Positions 7,240 to 14,343 of a stretch of 64,000 nt of DNA are shown one piece after another (within the stretch, counting starts at the first letter, position 1; each line of letters opens with the position of its first letter). The notes under the pieces were generated by a model. That model had not been told where the DNA came from. It was given only the letters and a program-made list of their open reading frames with translations, and made no database searches. This DNA comes from Candidatus Saccharicenans subterraneus (GTDB lineage: Bacteria > Acidobacteriota > Aminicenantia > Aminicenantales > Saccharicenantaceae): positions 62,001 through 126,000 of the forward strand of contig QUAH01000005.1 in assembly GCA_003426165.1 (NCBI GenBank). The letters run 5' to 3'. The translations under genes were made by a program, and so were the position numbers.

Positions 7240-9264
7240 ATGAACCGGTCCTGTGTGATATGTTTATTGATTCTGGTTTTATTGTTGGCAGCCAATATTT
7301 TCGGAGGAGAGACGGTGAACGAGGTCAGGATTGTCAGGACTCCGCCGGTCGACAGGATAAACTCTCACTACCAGGGAAACCGGCCTCCGCTTCGGGCCAA
7401 TCCTCTGCTCAAGCTTCCCCCGGGGCAGGTCGAAGCCCGTGGCTGGTTGTTAAGCCAGCTCCGGCTGATGGCCTCGGGATTGACGGGACGCCTGCCAGAA
7501 ATATCAAAGTTCTTGCAGGGCGATTCAGGCTGGCTGACCCTGAAAGGCCGCGGCTGGGAAGAGATGCCGTACTGGCTGAAGGGCTTCGGGGATCTGGCCT
7601 ACCTGCTCAAAGACCCGGAATTAATAGCCACCGCCAGGAAATGGATCGAAGCCATACTGAAGAGCCAGCAGCCCGACGGTTACTTCGGCCCGGTCGATAA
7701 CAGAGACAATAATGACCTCTGGCCCAACATGGTGGCCCTGGCCTGCCTGCAGAGCTATTATGAATTCAGCGGAGACAGGAGAGTGCTTGATTTCATGTCT
7801 GCCTATTTTCGCTATCAATTTAGCCTGCCCGAAGAAAAGCTTTTTCCAGGAAGCTGGCAGAAGCTGCGGGGAGGGGAAAACCTGGAAAGCGTTTACTGGC
7901 TTTATAACCGAACCGGTGAAGCCTGGCTCCTGGAACTGGCCAAAAGAATTTACCGGCGCACCGCCGACTGGGCCTCTCCGATACTTACCGCAGAACGCGA
8001 CCGGCACTGGGAAGAAAGTTCGTTCTACCACGGGGTAAATATTGCCATGGGCTTCAGATACCCCGGGGTTTATTATCAACAGGCAGGAGAGCCGGGATTG
8101 CTGGAAGCGGTAGAAAGAAACTACCGCCAGGTGATGGAAGCCTACGGACAGCAGCCCGGAGGTATGTTTGCCGCCGACGAAAATATAAGACCCGGATATG
8201 GCGACCCGAGACAGGGGGCTGAAACCTGCACCATGGTTGAATTCATGAACAGTTTTGAGTCCCTGCTGAAGATAACAGGGCAGGTGGTTTACGCCGACCG
8301 GGCTGAGGAGGTTGCTGTTAATTCACTGCCAGCGGCCCTGACTCCTGACTTAAAAGCCCTGCATTACCTGACGGCTGCCAACCTTATTTCCTGCGACAGT
8401 TCCGGAGATCACGATTTCCAGAATTCCGGCACGCTGCTATCTTTTGACCCCTGGAAGTATCGTTGCTGCCAGCACAACGTGGCTTTTGGCTGGCCCTATT
8501 ATATTGAGCACCTCTACCTGGCCACGTCCGAAAACGGCCTGGCGACTATTTTTTATGGACCTTCAATGGTTAATTTCAAGGCCGGGAATTTGGGGAAGGC
8601 GGCCAGGATTGTCCAGGATACGAATTATCCTTTTTCCGGCCGGATTGAGCTGACTGTCTATGCTGATGAGCCGGTTGCTTTTCCTCTGTATTTAAGAATG
8701 CCAGGCTGGGCAGAGAAGGCCTCGATTTCGATTAACGGGGGAAAGCCGCGGGAGATAAAGGCAGCCGGAGAATTTGCGGTCGTGGAACAAACCTGGAAAT
8801 ATGGAGACAGGATAACCCTCGACCTGGAACAATCAATAAAGGTTCATTTCTGGCCGGGCCTGGGCCAGGCTGCCTCCATCAGGCGGGGACCACTCTGGTA
8901 CTCACTGGAAATCAAGGAAGAATGGAAGAGGGCCGGGGGCAGCGACGACTGGCCGGCCTGGGAAGTGCTGCCAGCCTCGCCCTGGAATTTCGCCCTCCTT
9001 CTTGACCCCGAAGCTCCATCCAGTGACATCGAGCTCATCGAGGAAAGGCCTCTCGATTACCAACCTTTTTCGCTTGACTCAACCCCTCTGGTTCTGGAGG
9101 CCAGAGCCAGGAGGTTGCCAGAATGGAGGGAAGAAGGCCGGATGGTGGGAAAGGTTCCAGCCAGCCCGGTCAGTTCCAGGCAACCCGACACCAGAATCAG
9201 GTTGATTCCCATGGGGTGCGCCAGGCTGAGGATAACCTGCTTTCCCTGGGTTAAGGTAAACTGA
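7240..9264 (+). CDS. Secreted GH127 beta-L-arabinofuranosidase family protein
   Basis: 674-residue glycoside hydrolase of the GH127/DUF1680 family with an N-terminal signal peptide (MNRSCVICLLILVLLLAANIF). The family's zinc/cysteine site is intact: Glu328 and Cys330 in 'GAETC', and Cys409-Cys410 in 'YRCCQHN', matching the Glu, Cys, Cys, Cys ligand and nucleophile set known from Bifidobacterium HypBA1. An (alpha/alpha)6 barrel is followed by beta-sandwich domains ('LYLRMPGWAEKASISINGG'). It probably releases beta-L-arabinofuranose or a related sugar from plant or glycoprotein glycans in the periplasm or outside the cell. The ATG follows an AGGAG site. No other sugar-degradation genes are adjacent, so the substrate is open. 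Confidence 0.88.
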   Translation: MNRSCVICLLILVLLLAANIFGGETVNEVRIVRTPPVDRINSHYQGNRPPLRANPLLKLPPGQVEARGWLLSQLRLMASGLTGRLPEISKFLQGDSGWLTLKGRGWEEMPYWLKGFGDLAYLLKDPELIATARKWIEAILKSQQPDGYFGPVDNRDNNDLWPNMVALACLQSYYEFSGDRRVLDFMSAYFRYQFSLPEEKLFPGSWQKLRGGENLESVYWLYNRTGEAWLLELAKRIYRRTADWASPILTAERDRHWEESSFYHGVNIAMGFRYPGVYYQQAGEPGLLEAVERNYRQVMEAYGQQPGGMFAADENIRPGYGDPRQGAETCTMVEFMNSFESLLKITGQVVYADRAEEVAVNSLPAALTPDLKALHYLTAANLISCDSSGDHDFQNSGTLLSFDPWKYRCCQHNVAFGWPYYIEHLYLATSENGLATIFYGPSMVNFKAGNLGKAARIVQDTNYPFSGRIELTVYADEPVAFPLYLRMPGWAEKASISINGGKPREIKAAGEFAVVEQTWKYGDRITLDLEQSIKVHFWPGLGQAASIRRGPLWYSLEIKEEWKRAGGSDDWPAWEVLPASPWNFALLLDPEAPSSDIELIEERPLDYQPFSLDSTPLVLEARARRLPEWREEGRMVGKVPASPVSSRQPDTRIRLIPMGCARLRITCFPWVKVN

Positions 9265-9317
9265 TCGAGGACTTTATTAACTGGATAAAGGCCATGCGAA
9301 AACATGAAAGGTCAAAA

Positions 9318-10223
9318 ATGAAAAGAGCAATTGAAAACATGTTTCGTGCCGCAGCCCTTTTAACCCTGAACCTGATATTATTATCTGGGCTCCAGGCTCA
9401 GACTCCCGAGCGCCGCCTGGTATCGGGAGAATGGCTGGAGGCCAGCCTGAACCTGCCCAACCTCAGAATCATAGACATGAGAGCCGATATCAGGGATTAC
9501 TGGGCCGGACATATACCGGGAGCCGTTTACCTGGATGAAACCGCCCTGCGCTGGCCCCAGAACGGAGTTCCCGGACGTCTCATTCCCCCTGAAATCCTGA
9601 CCAGGTTGCTGGAGGAAATAGGAGTAAATCAGAAAACCACCGTCATTATTTACACCGAGATTAACAATTACCGTGCGACTTACCTGGCCTGGGCTCTTGA
9701 TTACCTAAGGCATACCGGCTGGGCCATTCTTGACGGCGGCTTTAACCGCTGGAAGAACGAGAACAGGCCGGTATCGCGCGATTATCCGGTGCTGAACCGG
9801 ACCAACTACGGCTCGAAAATAAATCCCGACGAATCAGTCAGGGCGGTTCTGGACCAGGTCAAGAACCGCGACCCCAGGACTACCGTGCTGCTTGATGTCA
9901 GGTCGGCCGAGTTGTACTCTGGTGAACGCGGTAACTGGAAGAGAAACGGACATATCCCGGGAGCGATCAACATATTCTGGGGATCTTTTCTGAGGGAGGA
10001 TGGGAGCTGGAAAGACCTTAAGGTGGTCGCCGGGAACCTGCGGGACATGGGTATAACGCCTGACAAGACCATAATTGTTTCTTGCGGACAGGGGTTGATG
10101 GCTTCCCACACCTATCTGACCCTCAAGTATCTGTTGAATTATCCGAAGGTTCGGTTGTACGACGGAAGCTTCAACGAGTGGAGTAACCGGGACGACCTCC
10201 CGGTAGAAACCGGCCAGAGGTAA
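9318..10223 (+). CDS. Exported tandem-rhodanese sulfurtransferase
   Basis: 301 residues with a signal peptide ending near 'LSGLQAQ' and two rhodanese domains. The N-terminal domain ('RIIDMRADIRDYWAGHIPGAVY') lacks a catalytic cysteine at its loop ('YTEINNYR'), which is usual for tandem rhodaneses. The C-terminal domain keeps the active-site loop C-G-Q-G-L-M-A with Cys256 and 'LLDVRSAELYSGERG'. It would move sulfane sulphur to thiols in the periplasm. I chose ATG 9318 over 9294 because AAGG sits six bases before it, whereas 9294 has only two bases between AAGG and ATG. It is the first gene of a three-gene unit with a CXXC miniprotein and a NapH-like ferredoxin membrane protein. Confidence 0.88.
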   Translation: MKRAIENMFRAAALLTLNLILLSGLQAQTPERRLVSGEWLEASLNLPNLRIIDMRADIRDYWAGHIPGAVYLDETALRWPQNGVPGRLIPPEILTRLLEEIGVNQKTTVIIYTEINNYRATYLAWALDYLRHTGWAILDGGFNRWKNENRPVSRDYPVLNRTNYGSKINPDESVRAVLDQVKNRDPRTTVLLDVRSAELYSGERGNWKRNGHIPGAINIFWGSFLREDGSWKDLKVVAGNLRDMGITPDKTIIVSCGQGLMASHTYLTLKYLLNYPKVRLYDGSFNEWSNRDDLPVETGQR

Positions 10224-10228
10224 GACTT

Positions 10229-10369
10229 ATGAAAAAAAGAAGGTTTTTGTTCTTTGTCTTTCTTTTCCTGTCGGCGGCTTTCATAGTCTTGGGGCTTCTG
10301 AGCGGAGAGTTCCGGGTCGTCTGGCAGAAAGCAGCTACCGTCTGTCTGGAATGCATCGGCATCGGGTAG
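10229..10369 (+). CDS. CD1871A-like CXXC membrane miniprotein
   Basis: 46 residues starting six bases after the rhodanese stop. It has a basic start (MKKRR), one hydrophobic helix of about 20 residues, and a conserved-looking C terminus CLECIGIG carrying a CXXC pair. This size and tail match the small 'CD1871A family CXXC motif-containing protein' group that is annotated beside NapH-type ferredoxin proteins in anaerobes; that match is from memory, not a search. It overlaps none of the neighbouring frames if NapH starts at 10381. The CXXC tail could be a thiol redox site or a cluster ligand for the downstream protein. Function is unknown. Confidence 0.75.
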   Translation: MKKRRFLFFVFLFLSAAFIVLGLLSGEFRVVWQKAATVCLECIGIG

Positions 10370-10380
10370 GAAGCCGGGCC

Positions 10381-11283
10381 ATGAAAACCAGAACTCTGAA
10401 AACTGAAAGCAAGAGAAGGTTATTTCAAGTAGTAGCCGCCCTCGGCTTCAACCTGGATTTTCTGTCGTTGCTAAAAGGGAATATCAGCCAGGCCAAAACC
10501 AAGGGGCTTTGTGTGCCAGCCCTGAATTGTTATTCCTGTCCGGCAGCGGTGGGGGCCTGCCCGGTGGGGGCGCTTCAAAACTCCCTGAATGCCCTGAGGT
10601 ATAACCTTGGAGTTGGGCAGAAGAAACTCGGGTTGTATGTTATCGGAAGTCTTGGTCTGATGGGAACCGTGGGCGGCCGGCTACCCTGCGGCTGGCTCTG
10701 TCCTTTTGGATTGCTGCAGGAGCTGGTCTATAAGGTCCCGCTGCCGAAGATAAAGCTTCCGGCTTTTTTAACAAATCTTAGGTACCTTGTCCTGGCGGTT
10801 CTGGTGTTACTGTTACCCCTCCTGGTGGTGGACACCTCCGGACTGGGCTGGCCCTGGTTCTGCAAGTGGGTCTGCCCGGCGGGCACCCTCGAGGCCGGAA
10901 TAGTTCTGTCAGCCCTGAATCCTGCCATCAGGGCCCAGCTGGGTTTTCTTTTCTCCTGGAAATTATCTCTGCTCATTCTTTTTCTGGTGTGGATGGCGGT
11001 TTCCATGAGACCGTTTTGCCGGACAGTCTGTCCGCTGGGGACCATTCTCGGGTTCTTCAACCGGGTCAGCGCCTTCAGGATGAAAGTTGACCTGGAAAGG
11101 TGCATAGTCTGCAACGCCTGCCAGAAAATCTGCCCGGTAGATATCAGGATTTACGAAGACCCGGACAGCTCGCAATGCATCAGGTGTCTGAAATGTGAAC
11201 AGGTCTGTCCCACGGTCTGCATTTCTCATGGATTCCGGTTGCCGGAGAGTGAGGGGAGTCAGCCGGCAAAAGTTCAGCCTTGA
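10381..11283 (+). CDS. NapH/CcoG-like 4Fe-4S membrane protein
   Basis: 300 residues with about four or five membrane helices and repeated Cys motifs typical of the NapH/MauN/RdxA group: 'CGWLCPFG', 'CKWVCPAG', 'CRTVCPLG' at membrane edges, plus an additional N-terminal Cys cluster (CYSCPAAVGACPVG) and two C-terminal 4Fe-4S ferredoxin motifs 'CIVCNACQKICP' and 'CIRCLKCEQVCP'. It should carry electrons across or along the membrane. Start at 10381 is preferred since a GGAAG site precedes it and it clears the miniprotein gene; an ATG at 10351 is in frame but overlaps. The rhodanese and CXXC neighbours suggest a sulphur or thiol redox role, but no terminal reductase is present. Confidence 0.85.
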   Translation: MKTRTLKTESKRRLFQVVAALGFNLDFLSLLKGNISQAKTKGLCVPALNCYSCPAAVGACPVGALQNSLNALRYNLGVGQKKLGLYVIGSLGLMGTVGGRLPCGWLCPFGLLQELVYKVPLPKIKLPAFLTNLRYLVLAVLVLLLPLLVVDTSGLGWPWFCKWVCPAGTLEAGIVLSALNPAIRAQLGFLFSWKLSLLILFLVWMAVSMRPFCRTVCPLGTILGFFNRVSAFRMKVDLERCIVCNACQKICPVDIRIYEDPDSSQCIRCLKCEQVCPTVCISHGFRLPESEGSQPAKVQP

Positions 11284-11368: not shown

Positions 11369-12538
11369 TCAGAAGGATTCCCCGGCCTTGAAATAAATCC
11401 CGTAGGTCCCCGGTCCGAAGGCCAGGTCCACCCGCAGGTTGGCATTCTCTTTGGGAATAATCTTGAATCTCAGGCCGAAGCCGGCTGCGTACTTGAGGTT
11501 ATCGAAAGAAATGTCCCGGAAACGATTGGCCAGGCTGCCCATAGCTCCAAAGATTACCGCCCCCAGCCTCTTCCAAACAGGGAAGCGATACTCGGCCTGA
11601 AAGGCTACCAGATTCATGTCCCGGAAACGGCCATTATAAAAACCGCGGAGCAGGGAGTCCCCCCCGAGGCGCGGTAGCCGGTAGAAGGGGACATCACCGG
11701 TATTGGTTTCAGCCAGGGCCTGGACAGCCAGGACCTGGTCGTCGCCAACCCGGTGGTAATTGCGCAGGTCAAACTGCAAGCTCAGAAAATCATAATCGCT
11801 TCCGAAGAAATGATTGTTCCAGTTAAGATTGGCCTGGAGGTAAAGCCCGGTATTTGGATAGAAAATGTTATCGCGGTTATCATAGCTGGCGGCCAGGCCC
11901 GGCCCGGACAGAAGCCCGCCACGGCTGCCCGTAACCAGATCCTGGTCGAGAAGCTTCCCGGGTTCAGTCTCGACTATCTTGGTGCTTTCCAGGCGATACT
12001 TCAAACCTAGGTAGAGGGGAAGTTCCCGGCCGAGCCTCTGTTGCAGCCCGACTTCCATCAGAAATCTCTGAGGGGTGTAAACTTCTTCCATCTCATCAGG
12101 AGTGTTGGGGCCGATTCCCCAGAGCTTGGTCGGGAACCGTTCAGCCATGAAATTTCCCGCTAGGAAGAGCGAATTATCATTTAGATATATTTCCGGTTTA
12201 ATCTGAAGAATGAATTGTTTTAGCTGGGTATAGATAGCCCCTACGAACATGGTGCTGGGACGGGCCTTTTTGAAAACCAGACCGAAGCGGTAGGTAATAA
12301 GGCTACCCAGTCCAAAGGCCAGCCTGGTTTCGGGAGTGTAATAAACGATGGGCAAAAGTGTAAGGCCCATGCGGTCGGGCTCTGACTCCTCGCTTATCAC
12401 GATCTGCTGGCCGTCTTTCCTGGCGGCCGTCTTCTGGGAGAAAAGGTCCGAAGTCAGGAACATCAGGAAAAGGCAGAGAAAGAGCGTGCTGACTCTGGCA
12501 GTCTTCTTAATTCTTTTGTTTTCAGTCGACAACAACAT
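11369..12538 (-). CDS. BamA/TamA-like outer-membrane beta-barrel protein
   Basis: 389 residues with a signal peptide (hydrophobic run ending near 'TSDLFSQ'), no visible POTRA domains, and a barrel-like alternation of aromatic and polar residues. The surface-antigen (Omp85) C-terminal domain shows 'SYDNRDNIFYPNTGLYLQ', 'RLGGDSLLRGFYNGRF' (the conserved LRGF loop) and a terminal Phe (KAGESF), the outer-membrane insertion signal. It could be a lipid or peptide pore; a patatin-type or POTRA partner is not in the window. It is transcribed divergently from the sugar-isomerase-fold gene. The start codon has no Shine-Dalgarno and lies ten bases from a -10 box. Confidence 0.82.
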   Translation of the reverse strand: MLLSTENKRIKKTARVSTLFLCLFLMFLTSDLFSQKTAARKDGQQIVISEESEPDRMGLTLLPIVYYTPETRLAFGLGSLITYRFGLVFKKARPSTMFVGAIYTQLKQFILQIKPEIYLNDNSLFLAGNFMAERFPTKLWGIGPNTPDEMEEVYTPQRFLMEVGLQQRLGRELPLYLGLKYRLESTKIVETEPGKLLDQDLVTGSRGGLLSGPGLAASYDNRDNIFYPNTGLYLQANLNWNNHFFGSDYDFLSLQFDLRNYHRVGDDQVLAVQALAETNTGDVPFYRLPRLGGDSLLRGFYNGRFRDMNLVAFQAEYRFPVWKRLGAVIFGAMGSLANRFRDISFDNLKYAAGFGLRFKIIPKENANLRVDLAFGPGTYGIYFKAGESF

Positions 12539-12738: not shown

Positions 12739-14343
12739 ATGAGTGATCGGGGATCAAAAAAAAGCAATAAATCAGCCAATAATCTCCTGAGAAGAAGGGA
12801 ATTTTTCCAGCATTGCGGCCGCTGCGCCCTGCTGGCCACCGGATGTCTTTATTCTGGTAGGAAAACAGGCGCTGCCCAGAACGTGGCTCTTCTCGACCTG
12901 TCGTCTCTGCCGGTCAAGAAAGAAGTCAGACTCAGATTGCTCTTCGCCCTGCACCGTCCGGTCCAGGACCGACCGGACTGGCCAAATCTTGGTTTTGACT
13001 TCAGGCCGGTCATGGAAAAATACCTGTCGATCCTGGAAAAGGGCCTGCCTGAATTCTCCTTCCTGGTCTCCACCGCCAGCAGTCCGGAAGAAACAGCCGC
13101 AATTTTGGAAGAGGACCGCGGAAAGCAGATTGACGGCTATGTGGTATTTCAACTTAACTGCTGGAACCGGGTGGTACAGCCCGCCGTCGAAACGGGAAAG
13201 CCCGTGCTCTATGTGGACTTTCAGTACGGGGGCAGTGGTGGTTTCCTGGTTTATACAGCCGGACTTCTCCGCCAGGGCAGAAAGAATTTTGGGTTCATAT
13301 GTTCTTCAAACCCGCAGCACCTGGTGGCCGCAGCCAGAGCCTTTAAGTCGGTCAGGGCGGCCACGGAAGAAAGCACTTTTTCCGGGCTGATTGAAGAGAT
13401 AAGGAAGAAACTGACTCCACCTACCGGCTATTTAAATTGTTACCCCGATCCAATGAAGCTTCTTCCTCCAGATGAAACAGCCTACCGGATGAAGTATTCG
13501 CCAATTCTTCTCTTCCGGGACCAGAATGGCGGAGAAGATCTGGAGATAGCCGGCATTCCCGTCATGAATCTTCCGTTTTCAGAATTGAACTCAGCCTGGG
13601 AAAAAGCGGACAGGGATGAGGCCGAAACTGTGGCCCGCGACTGGTGGAACCGGGCGGCCCTGGTGCAGAATGTAAAGTTTCGAGAGCTGATAAACTCGGC
13701 AGCCATGTACCTGGGAATGAAACAGTTGCTGCAACGTTACCAGGCCAGGGCCATTACCATAAATTGCCTGGGAGGATTTTATGGAGGCCATATCCACGCC
13801 TATCCCTGCCTGGGTTTTTACGAGCTCAACAACCAGGGGCTGGTCGGAGCCTGCGAGGCCGACCTGAGGTCGACGGCAACCATGGTGGCTTTCGGACTGA
13901 TGACCGGGGGACGTCCGGGGTACATATCAGACCCGGTTATGGACATATCCGGTCGCCATATCATCTATGCTCACTGTGTGGCTTCCAACCGGGTGTTCGG
14001 ACCGCATGGCCCGGCCAATCCATTTGAGATTCTAACTCATTCCGAAGACCGGCAGGGAGCCTCGGTGAGGTCTATCATGCCGGCTGGCTACCTGACCACC
14101 AGCCTGGAGATTGACCAGAACAAGAAAGCCATTCTGGTTCATCAGGCCAAGGCCGTTGGAAATTCCTTCGATGACCGGGCCTGCCGGACCAAGCTGGTAG
14201 CTGAGCCGCTCGGTGATTTTGAAAAGCTTTTTACCGAGTGGGACGAATGGGGCTGGCACCGGGTAACTTTTTATGGTGACCTGAAGAAGGCGGCCTATGA
14301 GCTGGGCTCGGTCCTGGGCTATTCAGTGTTGGAAGAAGCCTGA
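12739..14343 (+). CDS. Tat-exported L-fucose/L-arabinose-isomerase-fold protein
   Basis: 534 residues. The N terminus carries a twin-arginine-like signal (RRREFF at about 18-23 followed by a short hydrophobic stretch 'CALLATGC'), so a folded, cofactor-loaded protein is probably exported. The remainder resembles the FucI/AraA sugar-isomerase fold: 'GACEADLRSTATMVAFGLMTG' and 'ISDPVMD' put Glu373 and Asp398 25 residues apart, close to the 24-residue spacing of the two metal ligands in FucI, and His507 in 'GWHRVTFYGD' could be the third. Sugar isomerases are normally cytoplasmic, so an exported member is unusual; it might bind or modify a sugar in the periplasm. Substrate is unknown. Confidence 0.65.
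   Translation: MSDRGSKKSNKSANNLLRRREFFQHCGRCALLATGCLYSGRKTGAAQNVALLDLSSLPVKKEVRLRLLFALHRPVQDRPDWPNLGFDFRPVMEKYLSILEKGLPEFSFLVSTASSPEETAAILEEDRGKQIDGYVVFQLNCWNRVVQPAVETGKPVLYVDFQYGGSGGFLVYTAGLLRQGRKNFGFICSSNPQHLVAAARAFKSVRAATEESTFSGLIEEIRKKLTPPTGYLNCYPDPMKLLPPDETAYRMKYSPILLFRDQNGGEDLEIAGIPVMNLPFSELNSAWEKADRDEAETVARDWWNRAALVQNVKFRELINSAAMYLGMKQLLQRYQARAITINCLGGFYGGHIHAYPCLGFYELNNQGLVGACEADLRSTATMVAFGLMTGGRPGYISDPVMDISGRHIIYAHCVASNRVFGPHGPANPFEILTHSEDRQGASVRSIMPAGYLTTSLEIDQNKKAILVHQAKAVGNSFDDRACRTKLVAEPLGDFEKLFTEWDEWGWHRVTFYGDLKKAAYELGSVLGYSVLEEA

Follow-up and report, generated by a model that had tools for sequence, protein, structure and literature searches.

A CXXC miniprotein and a NapH-like iron-sulfur protein as a candidate membrane relay for exocytoplasmic thiols, paired with a sulfurtransferase in Candidatus Saccharicenans

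Introduction

In Candidatus Saccharicenans (Aminicenantes), an exported two-domain rhodanese, a miniprotein with a CXXC motif and a polytopic Fe-S protein are encoded in a single run of genes separated by 5 and 11 bases. What could these three proteins do together, and which of them belong together in the first place? A preliminary description, made from the sequence of the 64,000-nucleotide stretch of DNA analysed here (the window), had proposed a membrane thiol or sulfane-sulphur redox system and had placed its emphasis on the pairing with the rhodanese.

The miniprotein falls into CD1871A, a named NCBI family that has no assigned function and of which we found no mention in the open-access literature. 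Better described are the relatives of the Fe-S protein: work on PceC describes a membrane module with two CX3CP motifs that RdhC, NapH and NosR have in common, and leaves it unsettled whether these motifs ligate a cluster or form a disulfide (PMC5928378). NapH-like electron transfer systems have been described as modular in a survey based on flavinylation-associated gene clusters; the part of that survey considered here mentions neither the miniprotein nor a thioredoxin partner of NapH (PMC8238504). In the open-access literature, we found nothing on TlpA together with NapH-like and CXXC proteins.

Results

The open reading frames and intergenic gaps match the preliminary description exactly (Table 1). 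The rhodanese frame opens at 9294, and the ATG chosen as its start stands ahead of the export-type segment. A longer frame for the NapH-like protein, starting at 10351, was rejected as an artefact that overlaps the miniprotein gene; relatives begin at the equivalent of 10381. The operon is flanked upstream by a GH127-type beta-L-arabinofuranosidase-like gene (7240-9264, +) and downstream by an Omp85-family gene (11369-12538, -), both of which are syntenic within Saccharicenans and not elsewhere. Region 12739-14343 holds a gene whose order beside the operon is kept across the genus; its 534-aa product weakly resembles models of sugar isomerases (sulfoquinovose and L-arabinose isomerase).

Table 1. 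Features of the three-gene locus (positions in the window)
Feature	Position	Strand	Basis
Exported two-domain rhodanese / 3-mercaptopyruvate-sulfurtransferase-like protein	9318..10223	+	Domain matches, export-type N-terminus
Single Cys of the rhodanese, in loop CGQGLMAS	Cys codon 10083-10085	+	Only Cys of the protein
CD1871A-family miniprotein, 46 aa, one transmembrane helix	10229..10369	+	NF040920 match; C-terminus predicted outside
C-terminal CLECIGIG of the miniprotein	CXXC codons 10343-10354	+	Sequence
NapH/NosR-type polytopic Fe-S protein, miniprotein-associated subfamily	10381..11283	+	18 conserved Cys
N-terminal motif CVPALNCYSCPAAVGAC of the NapH-like protein	10510..10560	+	Four Cys missing in E. 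coli NapH and YccM
Third CX3CP motif, CKWVC(P), of the NapH-like protein	10861..10875	+	Missing in E. coli NapH and YccM; estimated exocytoplasmic

The miniprotein matches the CD1871A model (NF040920) over its whole profile (1-38), reaching 56.9 bits where the cut-off is 32, and agrees with the family in length, transmembrane helix and CXXC-I-G-x-G ending, without any difference; its single hydrophobic segment is preceded by KKRR at the N-terminus. Across 13 Saccharicenans loci, its frame has a mean dN/dS of 0.19, while the other two forward frames reach 1.36 and 1.40, and 20 of the 21 good-quality genomes in the taxonomic family carry the miniprotein, showing that it is a real gene under purifying selection rather than a chance reading frame. 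Mean values for the NapH-like protein and the rhodanese in the same loci are 0.10 each. In the phylum at large, the miniprotein occurs in 12 of 258 genomes, all within one order. The suggestion that such genes are easily missed by gene callers holds in part: the Peptoclostridium homolog is annotated, while divergent copies escape the NCBI model. Three of these, each next to a NapH gene, end in CLSCIGVQ, CFSCIGLE and CLDCIGLA (L246, L247 and L130), so that NF040920 seems too narrow.

To which protein is the miniprotein tied? A search with the NapH-like protein as query yielded 80 named loci from Aminicenantes, Treponema, Clostridia, Desulfobacterota, Actinomycetota MAGs, Poribacteria and Ratteibacteria, and in 77 of them the miniprotein lies directly 5' of the NapH gene, a count that is not circular since the miniprotein was not the query. 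The three exceptions all come from organisms that encode a miniprotein elsewhere. The association was also tested in both directions on 299 genomes of the phylum Bacillota, where 40 genomes carry the miniprotein and 43 the NapH subfamily (E up to 1e-30), with all 40 contained in the 43; a looser search uncovered a divergent miniprotein beside NapH in two of the three leftover genomes, raising the overlap to 42 of the 43. Neither outcome that would have refuted the preliminary description, absence of conserved co-occurrence or absence of purifying selection on the 46-codon frame, was found; the true partner of the miniprotein is the NapH-like Fe-S protein, with which it co-occurs nearly perfectly. 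Most of the genomes surveyed are MAGs; a row of the alignment that came from a plasmid record was excluded, and row L080 was disregarded in the NapH tree owing to a misread frame. Saccharicenans also contains a second NapH-like paralogue (L002 at G000:C2:15803-16651, L081 and L082), 52-53% identical, which keeps all 18 cysteines, has no adjoining miniprotein and forms a long branch in the tree.

By its hydrophobic segments and three Fer4_5 stretches (PF12801, 53.5 bits against a cut-off of 22), the NapH-like protein belongs to the Fer4_5 superfamily, and Pfam additionally detects two Fer4 domains. It stays well short of the cut-offs for NapH proper (TIGR02163, 51.5 versus 213 bits; NF007013, 42 versus 234) and is 23% identical to E. 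coli NapH. Its cysteine motifs comprise an N-terminal CX5CX2CX6CP, CGWLCP, CKWVCP, RPFCRTVCP and those of the Fer4 domains, and their 18 cysteines are kept in 74 of 74 aligned sequences (one site in 73), as are both miniprotein cysteines in 19 of 19 paired miniproteins. Six of the 18 are extra relative to E. coli NapH and YccM, four of them in the N-terminal motif and two in CKWVCP; in agreement with this, Pfam finds only two Fer4_5 stretches in the E. coli proteins. The polytopic membrane part and CX3CP motifs are common to NapH, NosR and PceC (RdhC), and the two C-terminal Fer4 domains to NapH and NosR, whereas the six extra conserved cysteines, including a third CX3CP motif, the near-obligatory miniprotein and the lack of an FMN-binding domain set the window protein apart. 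Judged by sequence, the miniprotein-associated proteins are a distinct NapH-like subfamily.

Where these cysteines lie was estimated from hydropathy and the positive-inside rule, which put CGWLCP, RPFCRTVCP and the Fer4 domains on the inner side; CKWVCP and the N-terminal motif come out on the outer side, as does the miniprotein CXXC. The extra cysteines would thus be located mostly on the outer side, together with the miniprotein CXXC, although the side of the N-terminal motif is the least certain, because the motif itself is hydrophobic; that of C44 is likewise uncertain by this estimate. An AlphaFold2 model of the miniprotein and NapH-like protein of locus L089, joined in silico as a read-through fusion, was of moderate confidence (pLDDT 79.8, pTM 0.79), with pLDDT values near 50 in the N-terminal cysteine region. 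Neither sequence nor fold searches returned a solved structure of the membrane core.

The third gene of the operon identifies itself as a rhodanese by a match to PF00581 in two stretches (110.1 bits), with a hydrophobic export-type segment at its N-terminus. Among proteins of solved structure, those closest to it are two-domain rhodaneses and 3-mercaptopyruvate sulfurtransferases (1UAR, 1URH), which match across the whole mature protein and likewise have one catalytic cysteine; the window protein differs from them in its export-type N-terminus, its linkage to the miniprotein and NapH-like genes, and a score below the SseA cut-off (NF008557, 141.4 versus 250 bits). Its distribution is narrow. 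The rhodanese occupies the position upstream of the miniprotein in every one of the 13 named Saccharicenans loci that have a miniprotein, compared to none of the 65 other named loci, and in none of 30 Bacillota loci; outside the genus, we saw it in this position only in one genome of a neighbouring sister genus (G297). In three Saccharicenans genomes (G315, G307 and G316) it is reduced to fragments next to intact miniprotein and NapH-like genes, and in G315 the catalytic cysteine has become glycine. As the NapH protein of G315 nests within the rhodanese-bearing clade of the NapH tree, the rhodanese was lost there after it had been gained. Being lineage-specific and decaying, it was ruled out as the core of the system.

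Elsewhere, the same position is taken by an exported TlpA-like thioredoxin with AhpC-TSA, Redoxin and Thioredoxin matches. Such a gene is present in 12 of 13 other Aminicenantes (the contig of the thirteenth stops at this point), 18 of 21 Treponema and three of four named Clostridia loci, and lies either directly upstream of the miniprotein or directly after NapH in 21 of 30 Bacillota loci. In Peptoclostridium acidaminophilum, the annotated genes for TlpA, CD1871A and the 4Fe-4S protein adjoin one another but for a single MFS gene between them. This exported thioredoxin, together with the near-perfect pairing of miniprotein and NapH-like protein, strengthens the thiol part of the original proposal, but sulfane sulphur does not hold as its general core: with the rhodanese confined to two genera and lost in three genomes, it is a lineage-specific possibility. 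The emphasis on the rhodanese pairing as a general feature is thereby lost.

Desulfobacterota loci mostly lack an adjoining thioredoxin gene. In Desulfobacterales, the pair follows an FdhE-like gene (L091, L093-L098, L102 and L117), in most cases with Fe-S and molybdopterin subunits also ahead of it, which suggests a partner of the formate-dehydrogenase type; in a set of deltaproteobacterial MAGs (L099, L101, L109, L110, L120, L125, L127 and L128), a thiamine-binding-family gene (PF01910) stands directly upstream of the miniprotein. Considering these loci, the pair may serve partners other than thioredoxin.

A membrane protein coupled to an exported TlpA-like protein is also what DsbD/CcdA systems with TlpA/ResA-type partners consist of, whose role the window system may fill, with the difference that it has no DsbD_TM homology and carries Fe-S motifs in place of a pure cysteine-pair shuttle. 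DsbD_TM (PF02683) has no match among the operon proteins or in the window genome, and 18 of 19 Saccharicenans genomes lack it, while 276 of the 297 genomes sampled across the phylum have it (93%). Within the phylum sample, 7 of 12 miniprotein-positive genomes lack DsbD, compared to 14 of 285 negative ones. However, since these genomes are related, the DsbD losses amount to few independent events and DsbD is retained by 7 of the 15 members of the family that lie outside the genus, the link is suggestive only. A strict replacement of DsbD is not supported outside the genus.

Discussion

Taken together, these results speak for a membrane Fe-S module of two proteins with an outer cysteine site that includes the miniprotein, and with exocytoplasmic partners from cysteine-sulfur chemistry. 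Gene order, co-occurrence, cysteine conservation, purifying selection and the exchange of TlpA for rhodanese in the same position are computed properties of these loci; from this genomic association, we infer a function as transmembrane thiol reductase. This suggests an undescribed Fe-S machine that moves electrons to thiols outside the membrane, and we give an about even chance to the reading that it is an Fe-S transmembrane electron relay for exocytoplasmic thiols, which in Saccharicenans has been re-aimed at the persulfide of a sulfurtransferase. In such a relay, Fe-S clusters would replace the cysteine-pair shuttle of DsbD/CcdA. A cytoplasmic donor (ferredoxin) or the quinol pool would supply electrons to the two [4Fe-4S] ferredoxin domains of the NapH-like protein, from which they would pass through the inner pair of CX3CP motifs to the outer cysteine site, composed of CX5CX2CX6CP, CKWVCP and the C-terminal CXXC of the miniprotein. 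In most lineages, this site would reduce the disulfide of the exported TlpA-like thioredoxin, while in Saccharicenans it would discharge the persulfide on the single cysteine of the exported rhodanese (RS-SH to RSH and sulfide). The topology, the cluster content, the direction of flow, the electron donor, the chemistry and the physical contact between miniprotein and NapH-like protein are what we infer to complete this picture.

The pair could instead be a general respiratory conduit in the manner of NapH, NosR and PceC, exchanging electrons with quinones, with the miniprotein as a small structural or cluster-ligating subunit, an outer partner that changes between thioredoxin, rhodanese and a formate-dehydrogenase-like enzyme, and no core role for thiol chemistry. 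We regard this as improbable, yet as an alternative to be taken seriously: the survey of flavinylation-associated gene clusters portrays NapH-like proteins as modular carriers with unrelated partners (PMC8238504), in the Desulfobacterota loci the thioredoxin gives way to an FdhE-like gene together with molybdopterin and Fe-S subunits, and the 18 plus two cysteines would provide exactly five [4Fe-4S] sites. A freely changing partner is at odds, however, with the recurrence of a thioredoxin-like protein in at least three phyla, and where the Saccharicenans lineage departs from it, the replacement is again a cysteine-sulfur enzyme. That the rhodanese is a mere neighbour without shared function, leaving the miniprotein and NapH-like protein as the entire unit, would fit its decay in three genomes in which the other two genes persist; its fixed place directly upstream in every named Saccharicenans locus with a miniprotein, at a dN/dS of 0.10, its presence upstream of the miniprotein in a second genus and its occupation of the thioredoxin position make this rather unlikely.

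Two further readings accept a role for sulfur or thiols and alter what the pair does with them. No feature of the sequence sets the direction of the relay, and exocytoplasmic thiols or persulfides might be oxidised and their electrons passed inward to quinones or cytoplasmic acceptors; NapH-like systems have been proposed for both reductases and oxidases (PMC8238504). TlpA-like proteins usually act as reductants. This and the loss of DsbD in Saccharicenans, both indirect arguments, speak against the inward direction, which we consider quite unlikely. Delivery of sulfur, with the rhodanese carrying sulfane sulfur and the other two proteins supplying the reducing power with which an exported Fe-S or molybdenum enzyme is matured, appears very improbable to us: while the position upstream of the miniprotein does hold a rhodanese in Saccharicenans and an FdhE-like accessory gene in Desulfobacterales, the rhodanese is restricted to two genera and was lost three times in Saccharicenans with the miniprotein and NapH-like protein staying behind, and the locus encodes no exported client enzyme.

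A counterpart to the proposed thiol relay in concept is the soluble ferredoxin:thioredoxin reductase, whose Fe-S cluster passes electrons to a thioredoxin disulfide. That enzyme is unrelated in sequence, whereas here the protein sits in the membrane and its partner outside. Tentatively, and with more doubt than we attach to the relay itself, the miniprotein and NapH-like protein could be its membrane-embedded counterpart in anaerobic bacteria, in which Fe-S clusters would serve to reduce disulfides outside the membrane, independent of DsbD/CcdA, with the C-terminal miniprotein CXXC as exchange site and with protein persulfides as the new target in Saccharicenans.

How anaerobes without DsbD/CcdA reduce thiols outside the membrane is poorly described, and the module would offer a testable answer, consisting of just two genes, one of them for a 46-residue CXXC partner, and spread over Bacillota, Spirochaetota, Desulfobacterota and Aminicenantes. 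What its partners have in common is, to judge from the natural replacement of a thioredoxin by a sulfurtransferase, cysteine-sulfur chemistry, and the relay would give a role to CD1871A, an annotated small-protein family that has had none.
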